Below the pieces are notes generated by a model that was not told where the DNA came from, did no database searches, and saw only the letters and a program-made list of their open reading frames with translations. This document shows positions 3,371-64,000 of a stretch of DNA of 64,000 nt, one piece after another. The translations under genes and the position numbers were made by a program. Positions within the stretch are counted from its first letter, which is position 1, and each line of letters opens with the position of its first letter. The stretch comes from Caldifarciminota bacterium (GTDB lineage: Bacteria; Hydrothermota; Hydrothermia; LBFQ01; DSFT01). The stretch lies in NCBI GenBank assembly GCA_025060695.1, contig JANXBH010000007.1, forward strand, positions 4,360 through 68,359. Direction: 5' to 3'.

Positions 3371-4006
3371 ATGCAACAAATTAGTCCAACAAGAATGAAC
3401 TTATTGAATTTAAGAAGACAAATACAAATGGCCATACAAGGTGCAAACCTTCTAAAAAATAAAAGAGACGCACTAATGAATGAGTTTAGAAAATTAATAA
3501 CTATTATAGTAAGAGAAAGAAAAGCATTAGATGAAGAACTAAGGAAAAGTATAAATATGCTAACTATTGCAATGAGTATAGACGGTAAAGAATCTCTTGA
3601 ATCAGTTGCACTAAGTTCAGGGAAAAAATTAGAAATAGAAATGATACCAAGAAAAGCATGGGGTGTAAAAGTTACTGAATTTAGATACGGAGATATAGTA
3701 AAAAGTGCTATAAATAGAGGTTTTTCTCCTGTTAGCATTACTTCAAGAGTCCAACTTACAGCACAGTCTTTTGAAAAAAGTATAGATGCCATATTAAGAG
3801 TTGTTCCATTAGAGTACAAACTTAGAAAGTTTGGAGAAGAAATAAGAAAAACCAATAGAAGAGTAAATGCATTAGAGCAAAAATTAATACCGGAGATGAG
3901 AGAACAATCCAAATTTATAAGACAAGTCTTAGAAGATAGAGAAAGAGAAGATAAATTCAGACTAAAAATTCTAAAGAAAAAAGCAGAAAAGAAAAAGTCT
4001 CAATGA
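3371..4006 (+). CDS. atpD: V/A-type ATP synthase subunit D
   Basis: The 211-residue product matches V/A-ATPase subunit D in length and pattern: N-terminal ISPTRMNLLNLRRQI, a long helix rich in K, R and L, and a C-terminal VNALEQKLIPEM helix with a charged tail. Subunit D is the central rotor shaft that carries torque between the V1/A1 head and the membrane ring. No other ATPase subunit gene is adjacent, so this one is detached from the usual ntp/atp cluster. It heads a run of overlapping genes (lipoprotein, PTPS, ruvC, ruvA) and shares ATGA with the next gene. The bare symbol follows V-type naming; ntpD is an equivalent. Confidence 0.9.
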   Translation: MQQISPTRMNLLNLRRQIQMAIQGANLLKNKRDALMNEFRKLITIIVRERKALDEELRKSINMLTIAMSIDGKESLESVALSSGKKLEIEMIPRKAWGVKVTEFRYGDIVKSAINRGFSPVSITSRVQLTAQSFEKSIDAILRVVPLEYKLRKFGEEIRKTNRRVNALEQKLIPEMREQSKFIRQVLEDREREDKFRLKILKKKAEKKKSQ

Positions 4007-4827
4007 AAAGGATTTTTATAATTTTAACTTTAATATCTTGTTCAAAAAAGACTACAACACCTGAAATTCCGCAAAATCCATACGATGCTTTCAACTTCTG
4101 GAATTTTAAACCATTTACAAAATTCACATATGAATATAGAGACTCCACAATATATAAATACAGCTTCTATATAACTATTTTAAACCCGCCAAATGCTGAT
4201 ACATTAGTTAGAAACTTTTTAGATACTTCGAACTTATCAATAAAACTAAAGGACTCTATATGGTCAATAGTAAATCCAGCAAAAGTAACTTATGATACTA
4301 TTAAACTTAATCAAAACTCAGTAATTTTTAAACACCTTGCATATGACATAAAAAAGGAAAAACACACTTATAAGAATTATCCATATCCTTTAATTCAAAG
4401 TTTTAAACCAATTCAGCAAACGTCGATATTACTAAATGATACGCTAAAAATAGGTAATTTTATGTGGAGTTGTTCACTAATAGTATTCATAGATACTCTA
4501 TATATAGATAGTTCAAGGGCAACTTCAAATAAAATAAACGACACATTCTATATAAAAGAGGAGGTATTCTCAAGAATAAAGTATAGGTATAAATTTGATA
4601 GAATAGTTTTGAATGAAGGATTAAAATGTGATGCGAGTGATACACTCATAAAAGAAAACTATGGTTATAAATACACTTTTGATAGTACAAAACTTGTTGC
4701 ATACAAAGGTATTAAATTTAGAGCATACTTTGACACAACATATGCATACATTAAGCATCATACAAATGCAGATGCAAGTTTTCAAATTTCAAAAAATATA
4801 AAGTGGTTTTTTATAAAGAATGAATGA
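4003..4827 (+). CDS. Predicted lipoprotein of unknown function
   Basis: The N-terminus is a short signal (MKRIFIILTL) followed by the lipobox LISC with Cys at residue 13, then a KKTTTP linker. The rest (274 residues in total) has many beta-strand-like stretches and no motif I recognise. Start ATG overlaps the preceding stop in ATGA, so it is probably translationally coupled to subunit D. Function is unknown. Confidence 0.65.
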   Translation: MKRIFIILTLISCSKKTTTPEIPQNPYDAFNFWNFKPFTKFTYEYRDSTIYKYSFYITILNPPNADTLVRNFLDTSNLSIKLKDSIWSIVNPAKVTYDTIKLNQNSVIFKHLAYDIKKEKHTYKNYPYPLIQSFKPIQQTSILLNDTLKIGNFMWSCSLIVFIDTLYIDSSRATSNKINDTFYIKEEVFSRIKYRYKFDRIVLNEGLKCDASDTLIKENYGYKYTFDSTKLVAYKGIKFRAYFDTTYAYIKHHTNADASFQISKNIKWFFIKNE

Positions 4828-5617
4828 AATTACTATTACAAGAAGATTCTACTTTTGTTCAAGTCATAGGTATTATTTAGAAAATTTAAGCTTTGACGAG
4901 AACTTAAGGTTATTCGGAAAAACAATATACGAACATGGGCATAACTATACACTTTTTGTATCTATTAGAGGAAATATAAATAAGACTACCAACATGGTAA
5001 TGAATATTTCAGAAATAAAAAACATAGTGAACGAAATAATAGAAAAATACTATGACCACAAAAACTTAAACTTAGATAATCCATTTTTTAAAAACAGACT
5101 ACCTACAACTGAAAATATTGCTCTATCGTTTTGGCACTTTTTAAGTGAAAAATTGAATTTATACAAAATTTTAGTTTATGAAGGAGATGAAATTTTTAGT
5201 GAGTACAAAGGAGAAAAAAACATGCTTTTTGGAAGAGTATATAAATTCTCCGCAGGTCATAGACTATATAATGAAAATTTAAGTGATGAGGAGAATAATA
5301 AACTATATGGAAAGTGCGCAAATAAAAATGGTCATGGACATGATTATAAACTTGAAATATACATAGAGGGAAAAGTTGATAAGGAAACAGGATTTATAGT
5401 AAATATAAATGAATTAGACAAAATAGTAAATGAAGTTTTAGAAAAAATTGATCACAAGTTTTTAAATTACGATGTTGAGTTTTTTAGGGAAAATTTACCT
5501 ACTACTGAAAATATCTTAATTTTTTTAAAAATGAGACTTTCTTCTAAAATAAAAGGACTAAAAAAACTTAGGATATATGAAACCGAAAATAATATTTTTG
5601 AAATTGAATGCGTATAG
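4820..5617 (+). CDS. Tandem 6-pyruvoyl-tetrahydropterin synthase / QueD-like protein
   Basis: Two PTPS-fold domains are fused in one 265-residue chain. Domain 2 (about 135-265) has the whole family set: zinc ligands in SAGHRL (His147) and GHGHDY (His172, His174), catalytic Cys166 in YGKC, a DHKF motif and TTEN. Domain 1 (1-130) keeps SSHRYY (His16), EHGHNY (His39, His41), DHKN and TTEN, but position 35, where the Cys should be, is Thr. Family members make 6-carboxy-tetrahydropterin for queuosine or pyruvoyl-tetrahydropterin. By inference domain 2 is the active half and domain 1 may be structural or differ in reaction. Overlaps the lipoprotein by 8 bases and ruvC by 10. Confidence 0.85.
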   Translation: MNEITITRRFYFCSSHRYYLENLSFDENLRLFGKTIYEHGHNYTLFVSIRGNINKTTNMVMNISEIKNIVNEIIEKYYDHKNLNLDNPFFKNRLPTTENIALSFWHFLSEKLNLYKILVYEGDEIFSEYKGEKNMLFGRVYKFSAGHRLYNENLSDEENNKLYGKCANKNGHGHDYKLEIYIEGKVDKETGFIVNINELDKIVNEVLEKIDHKFLNYDVEFFRENLPTTENILIFLKMRLSSKIKGLKKLRIYETENNIFEIECV

Positions 5618-6072
5618 TGGCTTTTGATATATCTATTAGAAATCTTGGCGTTGCTATTACAGAAGATTTAAACTATATCTTTAGCACCAATATTAAGACT
5701 TTAAAAGTAAAGAAGAATAGACTTTTATACATTTATGAAAAATCCGAAGAAATAGTAAGGGAGTTTCAGCCAAAAATTGCAGTAATTGAAGACGTTATAT
5801 ATCACAAAAATATAAAGACAGTGATATTACTTGGAAGTGTAAAAGGAATTATTCAACTACTATTAGAAAAGAATGACATAGGTATAGTTGAAATAAATCC
5901 AAAATCTTTAAAACTTTCTATATCAGGCTATGGAGCTTCAAAAAAGCATCAAATTCAATATATGGTAAAGAATGTATTTAAAATAGAAAAGGAGCTAAGT
6001 GATCATGAAAGTGATGCACTCGCTTTAATTTGGACTTACATATCCAAGTATGGTTTGGGGACTAAGAGGTAA
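5608..6072 (+). CDS. ruvC: Holliday junction endonuclease RuvC
   Basis: The 154-residue product has the RuvC acidic site: Asp7 in IVAFD, Glu61 in AVIED, and the C-terminal SDHESDALAL with Asp132/His133 and Asp136. RuvC is a dimeric resolvase that cuts Holliday junctions after RuvAB branch migration. Length is slightly below the usual 160-175 residues. It overlaps ruvA by 23 bases and sits in the subunit-D operon; ruvB lies 55 kb away in this window. Confidence 0.92.
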   Translation: MRIVAFDISIRNLGVAITEDLNYIFSTNIKTLKVKKNRLLYIYEKSEEIVREFQPKIAVIEDVIYHKNIKTVILLGSVKGIIQLLLEKNDIGIVEINPKSLKLSISGYGASKKHQIQYMVKNVFKIEKELSDHESDALALIWTYISKYGLGTKR

Positions 6073-6622
6073 AGTTCATAAAGTTCTTGGAAATAAACTA
6101 ATTCTAAATGTAGGTGATATTTACTTTGAAATAATAGTTCCATTTAAGCATAAGTTTGAGGTAAATTCGGAGATTTTTATACATATTCAAACAATATATA
6201 ATGAAAATGGTTTTTTTCTATATGGATTTTTAGATGAGAACGAAAAAGTTTGGTTTAATGAGTTAATCAAAATTCCAGGTATTGGTCCAAACCTTGCAAT
6301 TAACATAATTTCTCAACTAAACCTTTCCGAATTTAAGGAAATTGTAATAAAAGAGGATATAACTACTTTTTCAAAGCTAAAAGGGATAGGCAAGAAAATT
6401 GCACAGAAAATTATAAATGAAATGAAAGAAAAAGCACAAATATTACCATCGGATGAATCAAAATTTACACAAGATTTTATAGATGCTCTAAATATTCTAT
6501 TGAGCTTAGGTGTAGACTATAAAACTGCAAAAAACTCCCTTATTTCAATAATAAAAGAAAAGGGTAATTTAGGAATTGAAGAATTAGTTAAATCAACTTT
6601 AAGTAAAATCAAGTCGCTTTAA
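6050..6622 (+). CDS. ruvA: Holliday junction branch migration protein RuvA
   Basis: Start at ATG 6050 gives MVWGLRGKV, matching the family opening (M-x-x-x-LRGKV). The 190-residue protein shows the N-terminal OB domain, two helix-hairpin-helix motifs (IPGIGPNLAINI and LKGIGKKIAQKI) and the C-terminal RuvB-contacting domain (FIDALNILLSLGVDYKTAK). RuvA tetramers hold the four-way junction and recruit the RuvB motor. It overlaps ruvC, which favours co-translation. Confidence 0.93.
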   Translation: MVWGLRGKVHKVLGNKLILNVGDIYFEIIVPFKHKFEVNSEIFIHIQTIYNENGFFLYGFLDENEKVWFNELIKIPGIGPNLAINIISQLNLSEFKEIVIKEDITTFSKLKGIGKKIAQKIINEMKEKAQILPSDESKFTQDFIDALNILLSLGVDYKTAKNSLISIIKEKGNLGIEELVKSTLSKIKSL

Positions 6623-6625
6623 AAT
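6620..6625 (+). promoter_or_regulatory. TAAAAT -10 box before the TPR gene
   Basis: The core of GCTTTAAAATTT ends 7 bases before ATG 6633 and overlaps the ruvA stop. No ribosome binding site fits between box and start, consistent with a leaderless transcript. Confidence 0.6.
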
Positions 6626-6632
6626 TTAGCAC

Positions 6633-8153
6633 ATGCTTATTTTAATTAATCTATCACCAGAAGAAGCTTTTAACAGAGCAAATACACTTGTAAGTGAAAA
6701 TAAAAGTGATTCAGTTGGATACTATTTAAGTATAGCTTATAAAAAATATCCTTACGAAGTTGAAAATGTAATTTATTTAAAGTATCTACAAGATAGTATT
6801 ATAGGCGGTAAAATAGCAGTGGAGTTTTTAAAATATAACAAAACTTCACAAAAAATTTCTACAATAGCCCTTAATGAAATGATAAGAAGTAAGAACTACT
6901 TAAGTATTCCGGAACTATTAGAATTTCATTCTGATACAACAACTATTGGAAAAATTTCTAAATTTTATAGCTTTTTGTTAAGTAATAACTATGAAGATGC
7001 TATAAAAGTAGGTGATGAGATTTTAGATAACTTTATTAATCAAAGGCACTTTAAATTATTATTTGATGAGGATGAACCTTTAAATAAACTAATAAATAAT
7101 TTCCATGCTGACTTTGTAGAATTTTCTTGCTCGCATTTTTTCATGGAATCCTGCATAAAACATGTTAACTTTCTGAGTGAAAATGCTGCAAGAAATAAGG
7201 CATTGAACTTAATAATATACTACGGATATTTTAGACTAATAAGTGATAGTAAGAACTTTAATGAAAGCATTAGTAATTTAGAGAAATTTGCAAAAGTTTT
7301 AATACTAAATGAATGCAAAGACTACAATAAACTAACAACTATATTCTCCTCTGTATATTTTGAAACAGAAGCTTCATATGAATATGAAAAATTTCTATCC
7401 ATTTTGGATACACTAAGTAAATACTGTGGAAATTTTCTTGATAAAAAAATAAAAGTTTTAAAAGCCTTTGCTTTAAGAGGACTTGATAGAAACAAAGAAG
7501 CAATTGATATTCTAATTTCACTAAAAGACAGTTTAATAGAACCTCATAGAAGATATCTTGTCTTAAGTCTCGTTGATTATGGAAATATGGAATTAGCTAA
7601 GAAGTTATATAATGAGTTTAAACTAAACGACGTTTCAATAATAAAAATAAGACATTGTGAAACACTATATAGTCAAGGCAAATATAAAGAAGTTTTAAAA
7701 GAATGTGATGAAATGGATGCGGAAAGAGCATATGTATATTTTATGCAGTCTAAAAATAATTTAGCAAAAGAAATTATAGATAATTTACTAAATGACATTG
7801 AAAATTCTAATAAAAACTACACATACTATTGGAATAAGGGATGGTTTATGCTTCTACTTGGAAAAATAGATAGTAGTTATTATTATACAAAAATGGCATT
7901 AGATATGAAACCAAACAATTCATTTCTCATAATGAACTTAGGAAGTATATATCTATCTAATTCTCAAATTGATAGTGCCATTTACTACTACAAGAAAGCC
8001 TATGAAACTAACAAAAAATATGGAAACTACTATGAAAAATTATTCTTCAATACACTCAAAAATGATATTGAACTTATTGCAAATATCTATAAGATACCAA
8101 AATCAAAGATAAGGGAACTAAGAAATAATTTAAAAAGTTTGAATATACAATAA
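6633..8153 (+). CDS. TPR-repeat protein, probably exported
   Basis: A 506-residue protein with helical tetratricopeptide-like repeats; the clearest are near the C-terminus (YYWNKGWFMLLLGKIDSSYY, then NLGSIYLSNSQIDSAIYYYK). The N-terminus MLILINLS is a very short hydrophobic segment of the type on many exported proteins here. TPR arrays mediate protein contacts; partner unknown. It has its own promoter and is followed after 13 bases by the M14 peptidase, so the two may be one unit. Confidence 0.7.
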   Translation: MLILINLSPEEAFNRANTLVSENKSDSVGYYLSIAYKKYPYEVENVIYLKYLQDSIIGGKIAVEFLKYNKTSQKISTIALNEMIRSKNYLSIPELLEFHSDTTTIGKISKFYSFLLSNNYEDAIKVGDEILDNFINQRHFKLLFDEDEPLNKLINNFHADFVEFSCSHFFMESCIKHVNFLSENAARNKALNLIIYYGYFRLISDSKNFNESISNLEKFAKVLILNECKDYNKLTTIFSSVYFETEASYEYEKFLSILDTLSKYCGNFLDKKIKVLKAFALRGLDRNKEAIDILISLKDSLIEPHRRYLVLSLVDYGNMELAKKLYNEFKLNDVSIIKIRHCETLYSQGKYKEVLKECDEMDAERAYVYFMQSKNNLAKEIIDNLLNDIENSNKNYTYYWNKGWFMLLLGKIDSSYYYTKMALDMKPNNSFLIMNLGSIYLSNSQIDSAIYYYKKAYETNKKYGNYYEKLFFNTLKNDIELIANIYKIPKSKIRELRNNLKSLNIQ

Positions 8154-60832: not shown

Positions 60833-61105
60833 ATGTTTAATTTAATTTTGGTTTTTTTGAATTTAAATAGTGTAAATGGATTTGCAACGAGCTATGGAGC
60901 TTATGGATTTTCAACGAGTTTCAATATAATAAACAGACCAAACTATATACTTAATGCTGGTTTTTCCAATATATCCTATAATGGTCTAATTAGAAACTAT
61001 ATAAATTTTGATTTTCATTATAAAAGGGGAAGTTTTTCTTTTGAAATATATGGCAGTTTTATAGGTCATGAATCAAATTTTAGACGAGAAATTATCACTA
61101 AGTGA
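60833..61105 (+). CDS. Short exported barrel-like protein upstream of ruvB, possibly a stump
   Basis: 90 residues: short hydrophobic start (MFNLILVFLNL), then strand-rich sequence with Gly and aromatic residues (GFATSYGAYGFSTSF, FHYKRGSFSFEIYGSF) like the first strands of an outer-membrane barrel. It stops abruptly after reading 38 bases into ruvB. It is too short for a barrel, so it may be a truncated gene or a small leader-like gene that couples ruvB translation. Confidence 0.5.
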   Translation: MFNLILVFLNLNSVNGFATSYGAYGFSTSFNIINRPNYILNAGFSNISYNGLIRNYINFDFHYKRGSFSFEIYGSFIGHESNFRREIITK

Positions 61106-62069
61106 GTTAGAATACGAGAACTCTTTAAGACCAAAAAAATTATCCGAATTTATAGGGCAGGAGAAAGTAAAGGAAAATTTAGAAATTTTTATTAAATCAG
61201 CAAAAAAGAGAAATGACGTATTAGAGCATATTCTTATTTCTGGACCTCCGGGACTTGGAAAAACCACACTTGCAATATTAGTTGCAAATGAACTGGGCGT
61301 AAATATTAAAACCACTACTGGACCAGTTCTTGAAAGACCATTTGACCTTGTAGGTATATTAACATCATTAAAAAAAGGAGATATTCTATTTATAGATGAA
61401 ATCCATAGAGTTCCAAAGATTGTAGAGGAATACTTATACTCAGCAATGGAAGATTTTGTAATAGATGTAATATTAGATAAGGGACCCTCTGCAAAAACAT
61501 TTAGAATAAGACTTGAAAGATTTACACTAATTGGAGCTACTACAAGGATGGGGCTAATATCTCAACCACTTTTAGGAAGATTTGGCATAATATTTCATTT
61601 AGACTACTATGCAAACGAGGAAATTTTTAAAATTGTAATGAGGTCCTCAAAAATACTAAACATAAAAGTAGATGAAGAAAGTGCATACGAAATTGCAAGA
61701 AGAAGTAGAGGAACACCAAGAATAGCAAATAGACTACTAAGAAGAGTTAGAGATTTTGCAGAAGTAAAGAATAATGGAATTGTAAACTTAGAAATAACTA
61801 TACATGCATTGGAATCAATTGGAGTGGATAAATTTGGACTTGATGACTTAGATAAGAAAATTTTAAGAACTATTATAGAGAAATTTAGAGGAGGTCCTGT
61901 TGGAATAAAAACAATTAGCCTTGCAGTAAATGAAGATAGTGGAACGATAGAAGAAATATATGAACCATATCTTATTAGAGTAGGACTAATAGAAAGAACG
62001 AGTAGAGGAAGAATTGCAACCAAGCTTGCATATGAACATTTAGGATATGAATATAATAAATTGTTTTAA
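61068..62069 (+). CDS. ruvB: Holliday junction branch migration ATPase RuvB
   Basis: 333 residues: LRPKKLSEFIGQ, Walker A GPPGLGKTT (59-67), Walker B ILFIDEIHR (Asp110, Glu111), sensor IGATTRMGLIS, GTPRIANRLLRRVRDFA and a C-terminal winged helix. RuvB hexamers drive branch migration on RuvA-bound junctions. The gene is far from ruvC-ruvA. Its stop overlaps the box before the WD40-GTPase gene. Confidence 0.96.
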   Translation: MNQILDEKLSLSELEYENSLRPKKLSEFIGQEKVKENLEIFIKSAKKRNDVLEHILISGPPGLGKTTLAILVANELGVNIKTTTGPVLERPFDLVGILTSLKKGDILFIDEIHRVPKIVEEYLYSAMEDFVIDVILDKGPSAKTFRIRLERFTLIGATTRMGLISQPLLGRFGIIFHLDYYANEEIFKIVMRSSKILNIKVDEESAYEIARRSRGTPRIANRLLRRVRDFAEVKNNGIVNLEITIHALESIGVDKFGLDDLDKKILRTIIEKFRGGPVGIKTISLAVNEDSGTIEEIYEPYLIRVGLIERTSRGRIATKLAYEHLGYEYNKLF

Positions 62070-62082: not shown

Positions 62083-64000
62083 ATGACTCCTTATTTGCAT
62101 AGATTAGCAGTAGTAAAGCCTTTATATGATAATTTTGGAGAGGAAGCATTTAAAAAACCTGTTTTAGGATTTTTTGGAAAGAGAGACGAGCAAAAGTTAT
62201 CAATAATAAGAGAAATATTTGGCATAGATATAGAAGATGCAAAGATAAACATTTTAGCATATGGGGAAAATACGCATATTTCATACGGATTGCTTGATAT
62301 ATACAAGTTAGAAATTGAGGAATTGATGAATATTATAGTTTATGAAAGTGAAGATGAGGAATTTATGGAATATTGCAATAGAGTAGTTGTATATATAGAT
62401 TCAAGCTTGATTAATAAAATAGAAGAATACGCAAAGAAATCTTCCTTAATTATCATAGGGAAACTCTTGGATAGTAAATTAATAGATAAAATTGAAAAAG
62501 AGATATTACCTAAATACCCAGAATTAAAAATAAAGCCCTTCTTAGTAAAAAAGGAAGGCATTGACGATATGCTATATAAGGCTTGGCTGTATGATATTAG
62601 AGAGGAATTACTTAATAAAGAAGTTATCTCTGGAAATAGTGGTTTTATAGAATATGTTTATCTTAAAATAAGTATAAACAAAAAATACAAATCTAGCTAT
62701 ACTTCTAAAACTCTTGGAAAACATGATGATATTATCACTTCAATTTCATTTAGTCCAGATGGAAAGTACTTAGCTAGTGGAAGTAAAGATAAAACCATTA
62801 AAATATGGTCTGTAAGGGATTTAAAGGAAATTACTACCCTCAAAAGTCATAATGGTGCTGTTTACTCAGTCGCATTTAGTCCTAAAGGGAAATACTTAGC
62901 TAGTTCTGGAGAGGATGGAACTATTAAAATCTGGTCCGTAAACGATTGGAAAGAAATTGTCAACCTTCCTCATAACAAGCCTGTTGAAGCAGTTTCATTT
63001 AGTCCTGACGAGAAATACTTAGCTAGTATAGAGTATGGAGGAACTATCAGAGTATGGTCTGTAGATAACTGGAAAGAAGTTATTGCTTTTACTTTTAATC
63101 ATGACTTTCTTCCTGATATGTATAATATTCTATTTAACCCGAATGGGAAACTCTTAGCTATCATATACATATATACACTCATTAAAAAGAAACTCATTAG
63201 GATATTATCCTCAGAAAATATGGAAGTGATTAACTCAATGAGTTATGACTATTACCTTCTATATTCAATCTCATTTAGCCCAGATGGGAAATACTTCGCT
63301 GTCGCAAGTAAAGAAGGAGTAATTAAAATATGGTCCACTGAAAATTGGAAAGAAATTACCACCCTTAAAGAAGACAGAGATACTACCTATTCAATTTCAT
63401 TTAGTCCTGATGGAAAATACTTAGCCAGTGCAGGTAGTGATGCAATCATTAAAATATGGGATTTAGACAACAAAGAAGAAATTGCCACTCTTAAGGGACA
63501 TCAAGGAAGTGTTAAAGCAGTTTGCTTTAGCCCAGATGGAAAATACTTAGCCAGTGCAGGCGACGATAAAACTGTCAAAGTCTGGTTTATTGACCTATCA
63601 TATTTTGAGAAGAATTTACCAGAAATATTAAACGACTTAAAAGATATAGCTCTTTTATCTTCTTTACAGAAAATAACTGGAAAAAACATCCAAAATAGAA
63701 AGTCTATAGTATTTTTTGGAGAATTCAGTAGTGGAAAAACAACCATCATAAATAATCTTTTTGAACTTAATCTACCCATTGATATTCTACCTTCAACTGC
63801 AGTTCCAACTATAATAACTTATGGACAATCAAAAAAGCTTTATTTAATAAATACCTTCTTTGATATAGAAGAAATAGAAGAGGAAAATTTAGAAAAAATA
63901 TCTCACCAAAACAAGCAATATGCAAAAAGATACCTTTACAAGATTATTCTCTTAGATATGCCAGTATTAAAAGACTATATTATCATTGACACTCCTGGAT
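62083..64000 (+). CDS. WD40-repeat / dynamin-like GTPase fusion protein, cut by the right window edge
   Basis: At least 639 residues; no stop before the edge. Residues about 1-205 look like a worn GTPase fold: GFFGKRDEQKLSIIREIFG (29-47) keeps the spacing of a P-loop but lacks its key Gly and Ser/Thr, and IIIGKLLD and VKKEGID sit where G4 and G5 would be. Residues about 213-515 form seven WD40 blades, most with SFSPDGKYLAS and IKIW. A second GTPase domain has a good P-loop GEFSSGKTTIINNLF (from 546), PSTAVPT as switch I and IIIDTPG at the edge, as in bacterial dynamin-like proteins. Role unknown; membrane remodelling or defence sensing are guesses. Confidence 0.82.
   Translation, partial: MTPYLHRLAVVKPLYDNFGEEAFKKPVLGFFGKRDEQKLSIIREIFGIDIEDAKINILAYGENTHISYGLLDIYKLEIEELMNIIVYESEDEEFMEYCNRVVVYIDSSLINKIEEYAKKSSLIIIGKLLDSKLIDKIEKEILPKYPELKIKPFLVKKEGIDDMLYKAWLYDIREELLNKEVISGNSGFIEYVYLKISINKKYKSSYTSKTLGKHDDIITSISFSPDGKYLASGSKDKTIKIWSVRDLKEITTLKSHNGAVYSVAFSPKGKYLASSGEDGTIKIWSVNDWKEIVNLPHNKPVEAVSFSPDEKYLASIEYGGTIRVWSVDNWKEVIAFTFNHDFLPDMYNILFNPNGKLLAIIYIYTLIKKKLIRILSSENMEVINSMSYDYYLLYSISFSPDGKYFAVASKEGVIKIWSTENWKEITTLKEDRDTTYSISFSPDGKYLASAGSDAIIKIWDLDNKEEIATLKGHQGSVKAVCFSPDGKYLASAGDDKTVKVWFIDLSYFEKNLPEILNDLKDIALLSSLQKITGKNIQNRKSIVFFGEFSSGKTTIINNLFELNLPIDILPSTAVPTIITYGQSKKLYLINTFFDIEEIEEENLEKISHQNKQYAKRYLYKIILLDMPVLKDYIIIDTPG

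Follow-up and report, generated by a model that had tools for sequence, protein, structure and literature searches.

A WD40 propeller joined to a dynamin-family GTPase domain in two paralogous genes of a draft Caldifarciminota genome

Introduction

Dynamins have been described as GTPases that act through a stalk and through membrane contact, and a stalk is normal for the family. Bacterial genes for dynamin-like proteins mostly come as operon pairs, and heterotypic pairing is the presumed mode of action of their products (PMC6104087; PMC4159319). One bacterial member, DynA of B. subtilis, delays phage lysis (PMC8844932), and DO-GTPase systems consist of a member of the DO-GTPase family together with a GAP1 partner (PMC7159879). 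The words ‘dynamin’ and ‘GTPase’ are absent from the main text of PMC5587647, which deals with repetitive prokaryotic WD40 proteins, and our full-text literature searches returned no bacterial fusion of WD40 repeats with a dynamin.

Here we describe an unusual but real domain architecture in a dynamin-family GTPase, present in two copies in one draft genome (77 contigs). One copy closes the analysed window, a stretch of 64,000 nucleotides from contig C75. The anatomy of its WD40 and G domains is firm, and we tentatively favour, at less than even confidence, the reading that the protein is a soluble, stalkless switch or adaptor and not a self-sufficient membrane-remodelling dynamin.

Results

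The gene is cut by an assembly break and has a diverged paralog

The fusion gene is an open reading frame on the + strand (62083-63999) with an ATG start, 639 amino acids and an open 3′ end (Table 1). The window (C75:4360-68359) and its source contig (68,359 bases) end on the same base. Since C75 stops at the end of a 67-bp match to contig C66, the truncation, which a first-pass annotation had already recognised, is an assembly break at this repeat, explained by branching of the assembly graph at the match. The downstream sequence that the annotation had recommended obtaining is not to be had from C75, but the missing end is seen in a second copy at the start of C66 in the same genome (C66:1-1586, equal to L005:1-1586), which is complete at its 3′ end.

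Table 1 Features of the fusion gene and its surroundings in the window
Feature	Position	Strand	Basis or remark
ruvB	61068..62069	+	13 bp upstream of the fusion gene, same strand
Gene for pseudoG(?)-WD40-G protein	62083..64000	+	ORF; truncated by contig end after 639 codons; the C66 paralog predicts ~130 more
N-terminal alpha/beta domain, probably degenerate (pseudo) GTPase	62083..62697	+	Residues 1-205; self-alignment to G domain
Degenerate P-loop GFFGKRDEQKLS	62167..62202	+	Residues 29-40; alignments and inspection; GK[ST]: G to Q, T/S to L
Seven-bladed WD40 propeller, blade 4 degenerate	62701..63591	+	Residues 207-503; Pfam, AF2, Foldseek
Helical linker ahead of G domain (DLSYFEKNLPEILNDLKDIALLSS...)	63592..63702	+	Conserved in the C66 paralog
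Dynamin_N G domain, first 99 residues, up to G3	63703..63999	+	Pfam Dynamin_N 2.3e-13
G1 / P-loop GEFSSGKTT, dynamin-typical serine	63718..63744	+	Sequence; residues 546-554
G2 / switch I PSTAVPT	63790..63810	+	Sequence; residues 570-576
G3 / switch II DTPG	63988..63999	+	Sequence; residues 636-639
67-bp exact repeat at which contig C75 breaks	63934..64000	+	Equal to C66:1128-1194

In the C66 paralog an N-domain, two blades and a G domain lie in a single open frame, in the same domain order as on C75. The two proteins share 70% identity in the N-domain and 81% in the linker and the first part of the G domain, and the junction after the last blade (VWFIDLSYFEKNLPEIL / VKIWFIDLSSFEKNLPEML) is the same in both. 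An in silico join of propeller and GTPase, or a contaminating contig, could be suspected in a draft of 77 contigs where both genes sit at contig ends and a 67-bp repeat has caused a break; a join of this kind is what the first-pass annotation had named as grounds for giving up its reading. Such an artefact is highly improbable, given that the same domain order recurs in diverged sequence on another contig, which argues against a chimeric join, and that the only exact match of at least 30 bp between the two genes is the 67 bp ending C75, with none common to the domain junctions. Contamination is also unlikely because the ruvB gene of C75 has its closest match, at 68% identity, in a genome of the same family, which places C75 in this lineage.

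The C66 propeller keeps the first and last blade only, compared with seven on C75. This two-blade state may be an assembly collapse, since the two C66 blades have 36 identical bases in common. Given how the contigs are oriented, the two genes could lie side by side (ruvB - A - gap - B). Between the paralogs, dN and dS are 0.19 and about 1.5 in the N-domain and 0.10 and 0.46 in the linker and G domain; dN is far lower than dS in either comparison, and purifying selection acts on N-domain and G domain alike. The drop of dS toward the 3′ end, together with the 67 identical bases, suggests gene conversion between the copies.

A complete propeller precedes the GTPase domain

The first-pass annotation had read the chain as an N-terminal domain, a seven-bladed WD40 propeller and a GTPase with a dynamin-like motif pattern, and this description held throughout. 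Pfam WD40 matched the C75 protein at 1.5e-65 in six separate stretches, and an AF2 model built on the alignment of two sequences placed 28 strands at residues 207-502, seven blades of four strands each, with pLDDT mostly >80. The best PDB matches in Foldseek were seven-bladed WD40 structures, 5yzv and 7big (E ~1e-29), of which 5yzv, the top match, comes from a bacterial protein. The propeller thus has the seven four-stranded blades and the WD-type repeats of the WD40 family, six of the seven repeats being recognised by Pfam. Blade 4 shares 19-31% identity with the chain's other blades; the WD sequence pattern is gone from it but its place is kept, so that it is recognisable by position and predicted structure only; the remaining blades are 31-61% identical to one another. 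Within the genome, WD40 repeats were found only in these two fusion genes.

The G domain is of dynamin type

Dynamin_N was the best Pfam match of the G domain, at 2.3e-13 for the truncated C75 domain (last 138 residues) and 1.7e-16 for the complete C66 domain. All the hallmarks of the dynamin superfamily G domain are present, namely GxxxSGKS/T, the switch I threonine, DxPG and N/TKxD, the last as NKID in the paralog. The fusion protein accordingly appears, by its sequence, to carry every G motif of a working GTPase, with G4 (NKID) taken from the C66 copy. In a G-domain tree, otherwise without resolution, the C75 and C66 proteins form a lone deep branch, and AF2 confidence is low for both the N and the G domains, again with an alignment of two sequences.

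A regulatory GTPase on a propeller scaffold, unrelated to dynamins and membranes and serving for instance ruvB-linked DNA repair or ribosomes, was considered at this point. GTP_EFTU (7.6e-11) and MMR_HSR1 (7.9e-9) also match the G domain and the gene lies 13 bp behind ruvB, with which it is possibly co-transcribed. We consider this alternative quite unlikely, because Dynamin_N is the best match, the G1 serine and the PSTAVPT switch I are of dynamin type, and the relatives of this bacterium yield no match to the protein while their ruvB genes are otherwise flanked, so that it is not a housekeeping component.

LeoA was the best PADLOC match of the G domain (3e-11), and the PADLOC matches to the Leo proteins were confined to this domain with no tandem partner beside the gene, which falls short of a full LeoA/LeoBC system. 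The DO-GTPase2 profile scored 14.5 against a cut-off of 27, and no GAP1 partner was identified beside the gene. Other relatives of the G domain comprised one short, WD40-free protein from a Neomarinimicrobiota MAG, generic dynamin-family plasmid proteins and weak phage matches.

The complete paralog ends directly behind the G domain

Beyond G3 the C66 protein continues through NKID (G4) to its end at ...SIMSELLKKSKNSRFAEHYKKIYTDHREFFL and a stop, so that the chain finishes shortly after the G domain. The next 400 bp hold no sequence legible as a leftover dynamin stalk, and no helical stalk or trunk domain such as DLP_helical was matched by Pfam in the complete paralog, the end of C75 being unseen. 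Neither the C66 protein nor the C75 fragment contains a hydrophobic paddle or transmembrane segment by 19-residue hydropathy; the best values were 1.24 and 1.49, respectively, compared with 2.0-2.2 for the LeoBC and LeoA proteins of the same genome. The complete C66 paralog is, by prediction, stalkless and soluble. From the 81% identity we infer that the C75 copy ends in the same way, although that copy might run on further beyond the contig end.

These data bear on the possibility that the protein is a genuine dynamin-like remodeller of membranes, with the stalk and paddle of the C75 copy lying beyond the contig end and C66 representing a shortened paralog. The first-pass annotation had placed the membrane-binding part beyond the edge, and the unseen 3′ end of C75, the Dynamin_N match and the stalks that dynamins normally have speak for it. 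This reading is nevertheless improbable: the two copies are 81% identical over the common part of the G domain and identical in its last 67 bp, C66 has a clean stop with no decayed stalk behind it, and the N-terminus is occupied by other domains.

A probable degenerate G domain at the N-terminus

Searching each part of the protein separately, as the first-pass annotation had proposed, succeeded for the propeller and the G domain in Pfam, whereas residues 1-205 gave no Pfam, NCBIfam or PDB match. A new result of the present analysis is that this N-domain is probably a degenerate G domain. In local alignments the C66 N-domain matched its own G domain with Z 5.05 over shuffles, the highest value among 157 comparisons, made with proteins of the same genome and related ones. 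The C75 N-domain was weaker; three of its four best matches were GTPases, with the C66 G domain fourth at Z 3.1. An hhalign comparison of N-domain and G domain returned E 0.034, statistically weak as a single comparison, and HMMER in both directions gave E ~0.07-0.08, the first non-self match being a dynamin-family protein. The order of strands and helices in the AF2 model of the N-domain agrees with that of the G domain at low confidence.

Read by eye, the N-domain aligns in order with its own G domain from beta1 and the P-loop (KPVLGFFGKRDEQKLSIIREIFG) through beta3 (NIIVYES opposite YIIIDTPG), beta4 (RVVVYIDSS opposite KLVYVIDADTGS) and beta5 (SLIIIGKLLD opposite CVVILNKID) to beta6 and the last helix (LYKAWLYDIREELLNK opposite LIRNWKISIMSELLKK), a reading that agrees only partly with the computed alignments. 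Each of these tests is weak alone; judged together, they make a pseudo-GTPase a probable identity of the domain, in which we have good confidence. If this is right, the nucleotide-binding residues have been lost, with GKRDEQKLS in place of GxxxxGKS and with G3 and G4 gone. A CARF/Csx1-like sensor was also tried for the N-domain and provisionally rejected (PADLOC E 0.005 over 63 residues; other tests gave no support).

Distribution and gene neighbourhood

No relatives of the N-domain were found beyond the two copies themselves among 147 genomes of the phylum, nor in plasmids, the PDB, or scans of genome contigs and viral contigs by short peptide patterns, which reach close relatives only. The WD40-dynamin architecture was likewise absent from scans of the genomes of 84,980 species and of viral contigs, which used short peptide patterns and detect close relatives only. 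The earlier statement that no described system has this architecture therefore stands within the phylum genomes, these pattern-limited scans and the literature searches.

Upstream of the fusion gene the window holds housekeeping genes, e.g. ruvB, sppA, mazG and gltX, and the ruvB genes of the nearest relatives have other neighbours. Behind the C66 copy lie M1-type peptidase, cdsA-like and ndk-like genes, named by eye from translations. An ORF of ~74 codons (MTKIGKEQTYYGKTSVFEKD..., L005:1778-2002) immediately follows the C66 paralog. Neither copy has a partner gene next to it and, as far as the contigs reach, no defence genes or defence island were seen beside them. The partner genes that the first-pass annotation had expected past the edge are not supported by the ordinary-looking cellular genes downstream of the paralog, and its suggestion of a defence role drew no genomic support at either copy.

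The main rival to the switch or adaptor reading is nonetheless a sensor or effector of an immune or conflict system, with the propeller as a fast-changing recognition surface, as proposed for the repeat modules of STAND/NACHT-WD40-like proteins, and the G domain as a switch triggering the phage response. It would fit the variable blade number of the paralogs (seven against two), the 31-61% identity of the blades besides blade 4, close to the cut-off of 0.4 for the ‘moderately repetitive’ class (PMC5587647), the absence of matches from the phylum's other 146 genomes, which suggests gain or loss between lineages, the LeoA match of the G domain, and the effect of DynA on phage lysis. Set against this are the housekeeping neighbours at both copies, a chain with no nuclease, TIR, transmembrane or other effector domain, the restriction of the LeoA match to the G domain, and the possible assembly collapse behind the two-blade state of C66. 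On balance we regard a conflict-system role as unlikely.

Dynamin-family operons in this and other genomes

A second new observation is an ordinary LeoBC/LeoA pair elsewhere in the same genome. LeoBC (6.5e-68) and LeoA (6.5e-76; DLP_helical 3.3e-20) are encoded in tandem on contig C11, as in the LeoA/LeoBC systems, with hydrophobic segments in both proteins and a helical-domain match in the second. The pair (L076, C11:157000-167000, at 3748-7234) is located between V-type ATPase genes and a TetR/TolC-like pair.

In another genome (G059:C1:140000-154000, L077; 1448-6256, - strand), the gene that comes after a LeoBC/LeoA pair overlaps it by 8 bp and encodes a Card1-type CARF-PD(D/E)XK nuclease (PF09002 1.4e-8; PADLOC CARF4 4.5e-28), and a sigma-54-activator AAA protein and two HSR1-type GTPases are encoded nearby. 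To judge by its genes, the locus would combine bacterial dynamins with a nuclease activated by cyclic oligonucleotides. Trios of dynamin-family genes, the usual arrangement being pairs, were seen in two unrelated records, G033:C22:1-14000 (L019; 367-5914, - strand) and a Calditerrivibrio plasmid (L022; 202-6038), and a further trio is annotated on a Lysinibacillus plasmid (L084).

Discussion

In the switch or adaptor model, proposed by analogy with heterotypic pairs of dynamin-like proteins and with the Calditerrivibrio pCALNI01 trio, the C-terminal G domain would pair in its GTP state with another G domain. The partner could be the degenerate N-domain of its own chain or of its twin, or it could belong to a full dynamin-like protein, e.g. 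the LeoBC/LeoA encoded elsewhere in the genome. The propeller would hold the client or the site to be recruited, and GTP hydrolysis upon pairing would release the complex. The occurrence of the architecture in two paralogs on two contigs and a C-terminus with no stalk or hydrophobic segment speak for this model; the intact G motifs, the likeness of the N-domain to G domains and a dN well below dS are in keeping with it; and by analogy so are the Leo pair of the genome, the trio containing CALNI_RS10490 and the heterotypic pairing of bacterial dynamin-like proteins. Against it stand the location of the Leo pair on another contig, the lack of a partner gene adjoining either copy, the weak pseudo-GTPase statistics, the low AF2 confidence outside the propeller and the unseen 3′ end of C75.

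A more specific version, in which a stalkless chain of degenerate G domain, WD40 propeller and active G domain serves as an adaptor that recruits and times the separate LeoBC/LeoA membrane pair, seems to us rather unlikely. If true, the protein would parallel, in one bacterial chain, the partnership of WD40 adaptor and dynamin known from mitochondrial fission, and in acting on LeoBC/LeoA it would provide a bacterial dynamin with a regulator of its own. More generally, a dynamin-family G domain freed of stalk and membrane contact and tied to a propeller, and probably also to an inactive G domain, would imply that the family has also been recruited as a plain bacterial switch or adaptor, and the protein would offer a small soluble system for testing the pairing of active and inactive G domains.

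Compared with LeoA/LeoBC (PMC4159319) and Cj-DLP1/2 (PMC6104087), the fusion protein has in common a Dynamin_N G domain, dynamin-type P-loop and switch motifs and a helix ahead of the G domain, and its genome also has a LeoBC/LeoA pair. Unlike these systems, it has no helical stalk, paddle or transmembrane part, carries a WD40 propeller and an extra N-domain in front, and is not paired with a full dynamin. CALNI_RS10490 of Calditerrivibrio nitroreducens pCALNI01, which matched the G domain best among plasmid proteins (28.5% across residues 33-267 of 268, 88% of the query), similarly places an interaction region before a G domain near the C-terminus. It differs in that a coiled coil replaces the N-domain and propeller, ~100 more residues follow the G domain, and the gene is the third of its trio, directly after two other dynamin-family proteins. 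In B. subtilis DynA (PMC6104087, PMC8844932) two dynamin-like proteins are fused head to tail; if the N-domain is a pseudo-GTPase, both chains would contain two G-type domains, but the halves of DynA are complete and membrane-binding, whereas one half of the fusion protein would be degenerate and both stalkless. Yeast Mdv1/Caf4 and Dnm1 (PMC3534038) also combine a WD40 propeller with a dynamin GTPase, as separate eukaryotic proteins with Dnm1 being a full dynamin, which makes this a functional analogy, with homology claimed for the WD40 fold alone. Finally, the propeller resembles those of the moderately and highly repetitive prokaryotic WD40 proteins (PMC5587647) in being bacterial, seven-bladed and built of mutually similar blades.
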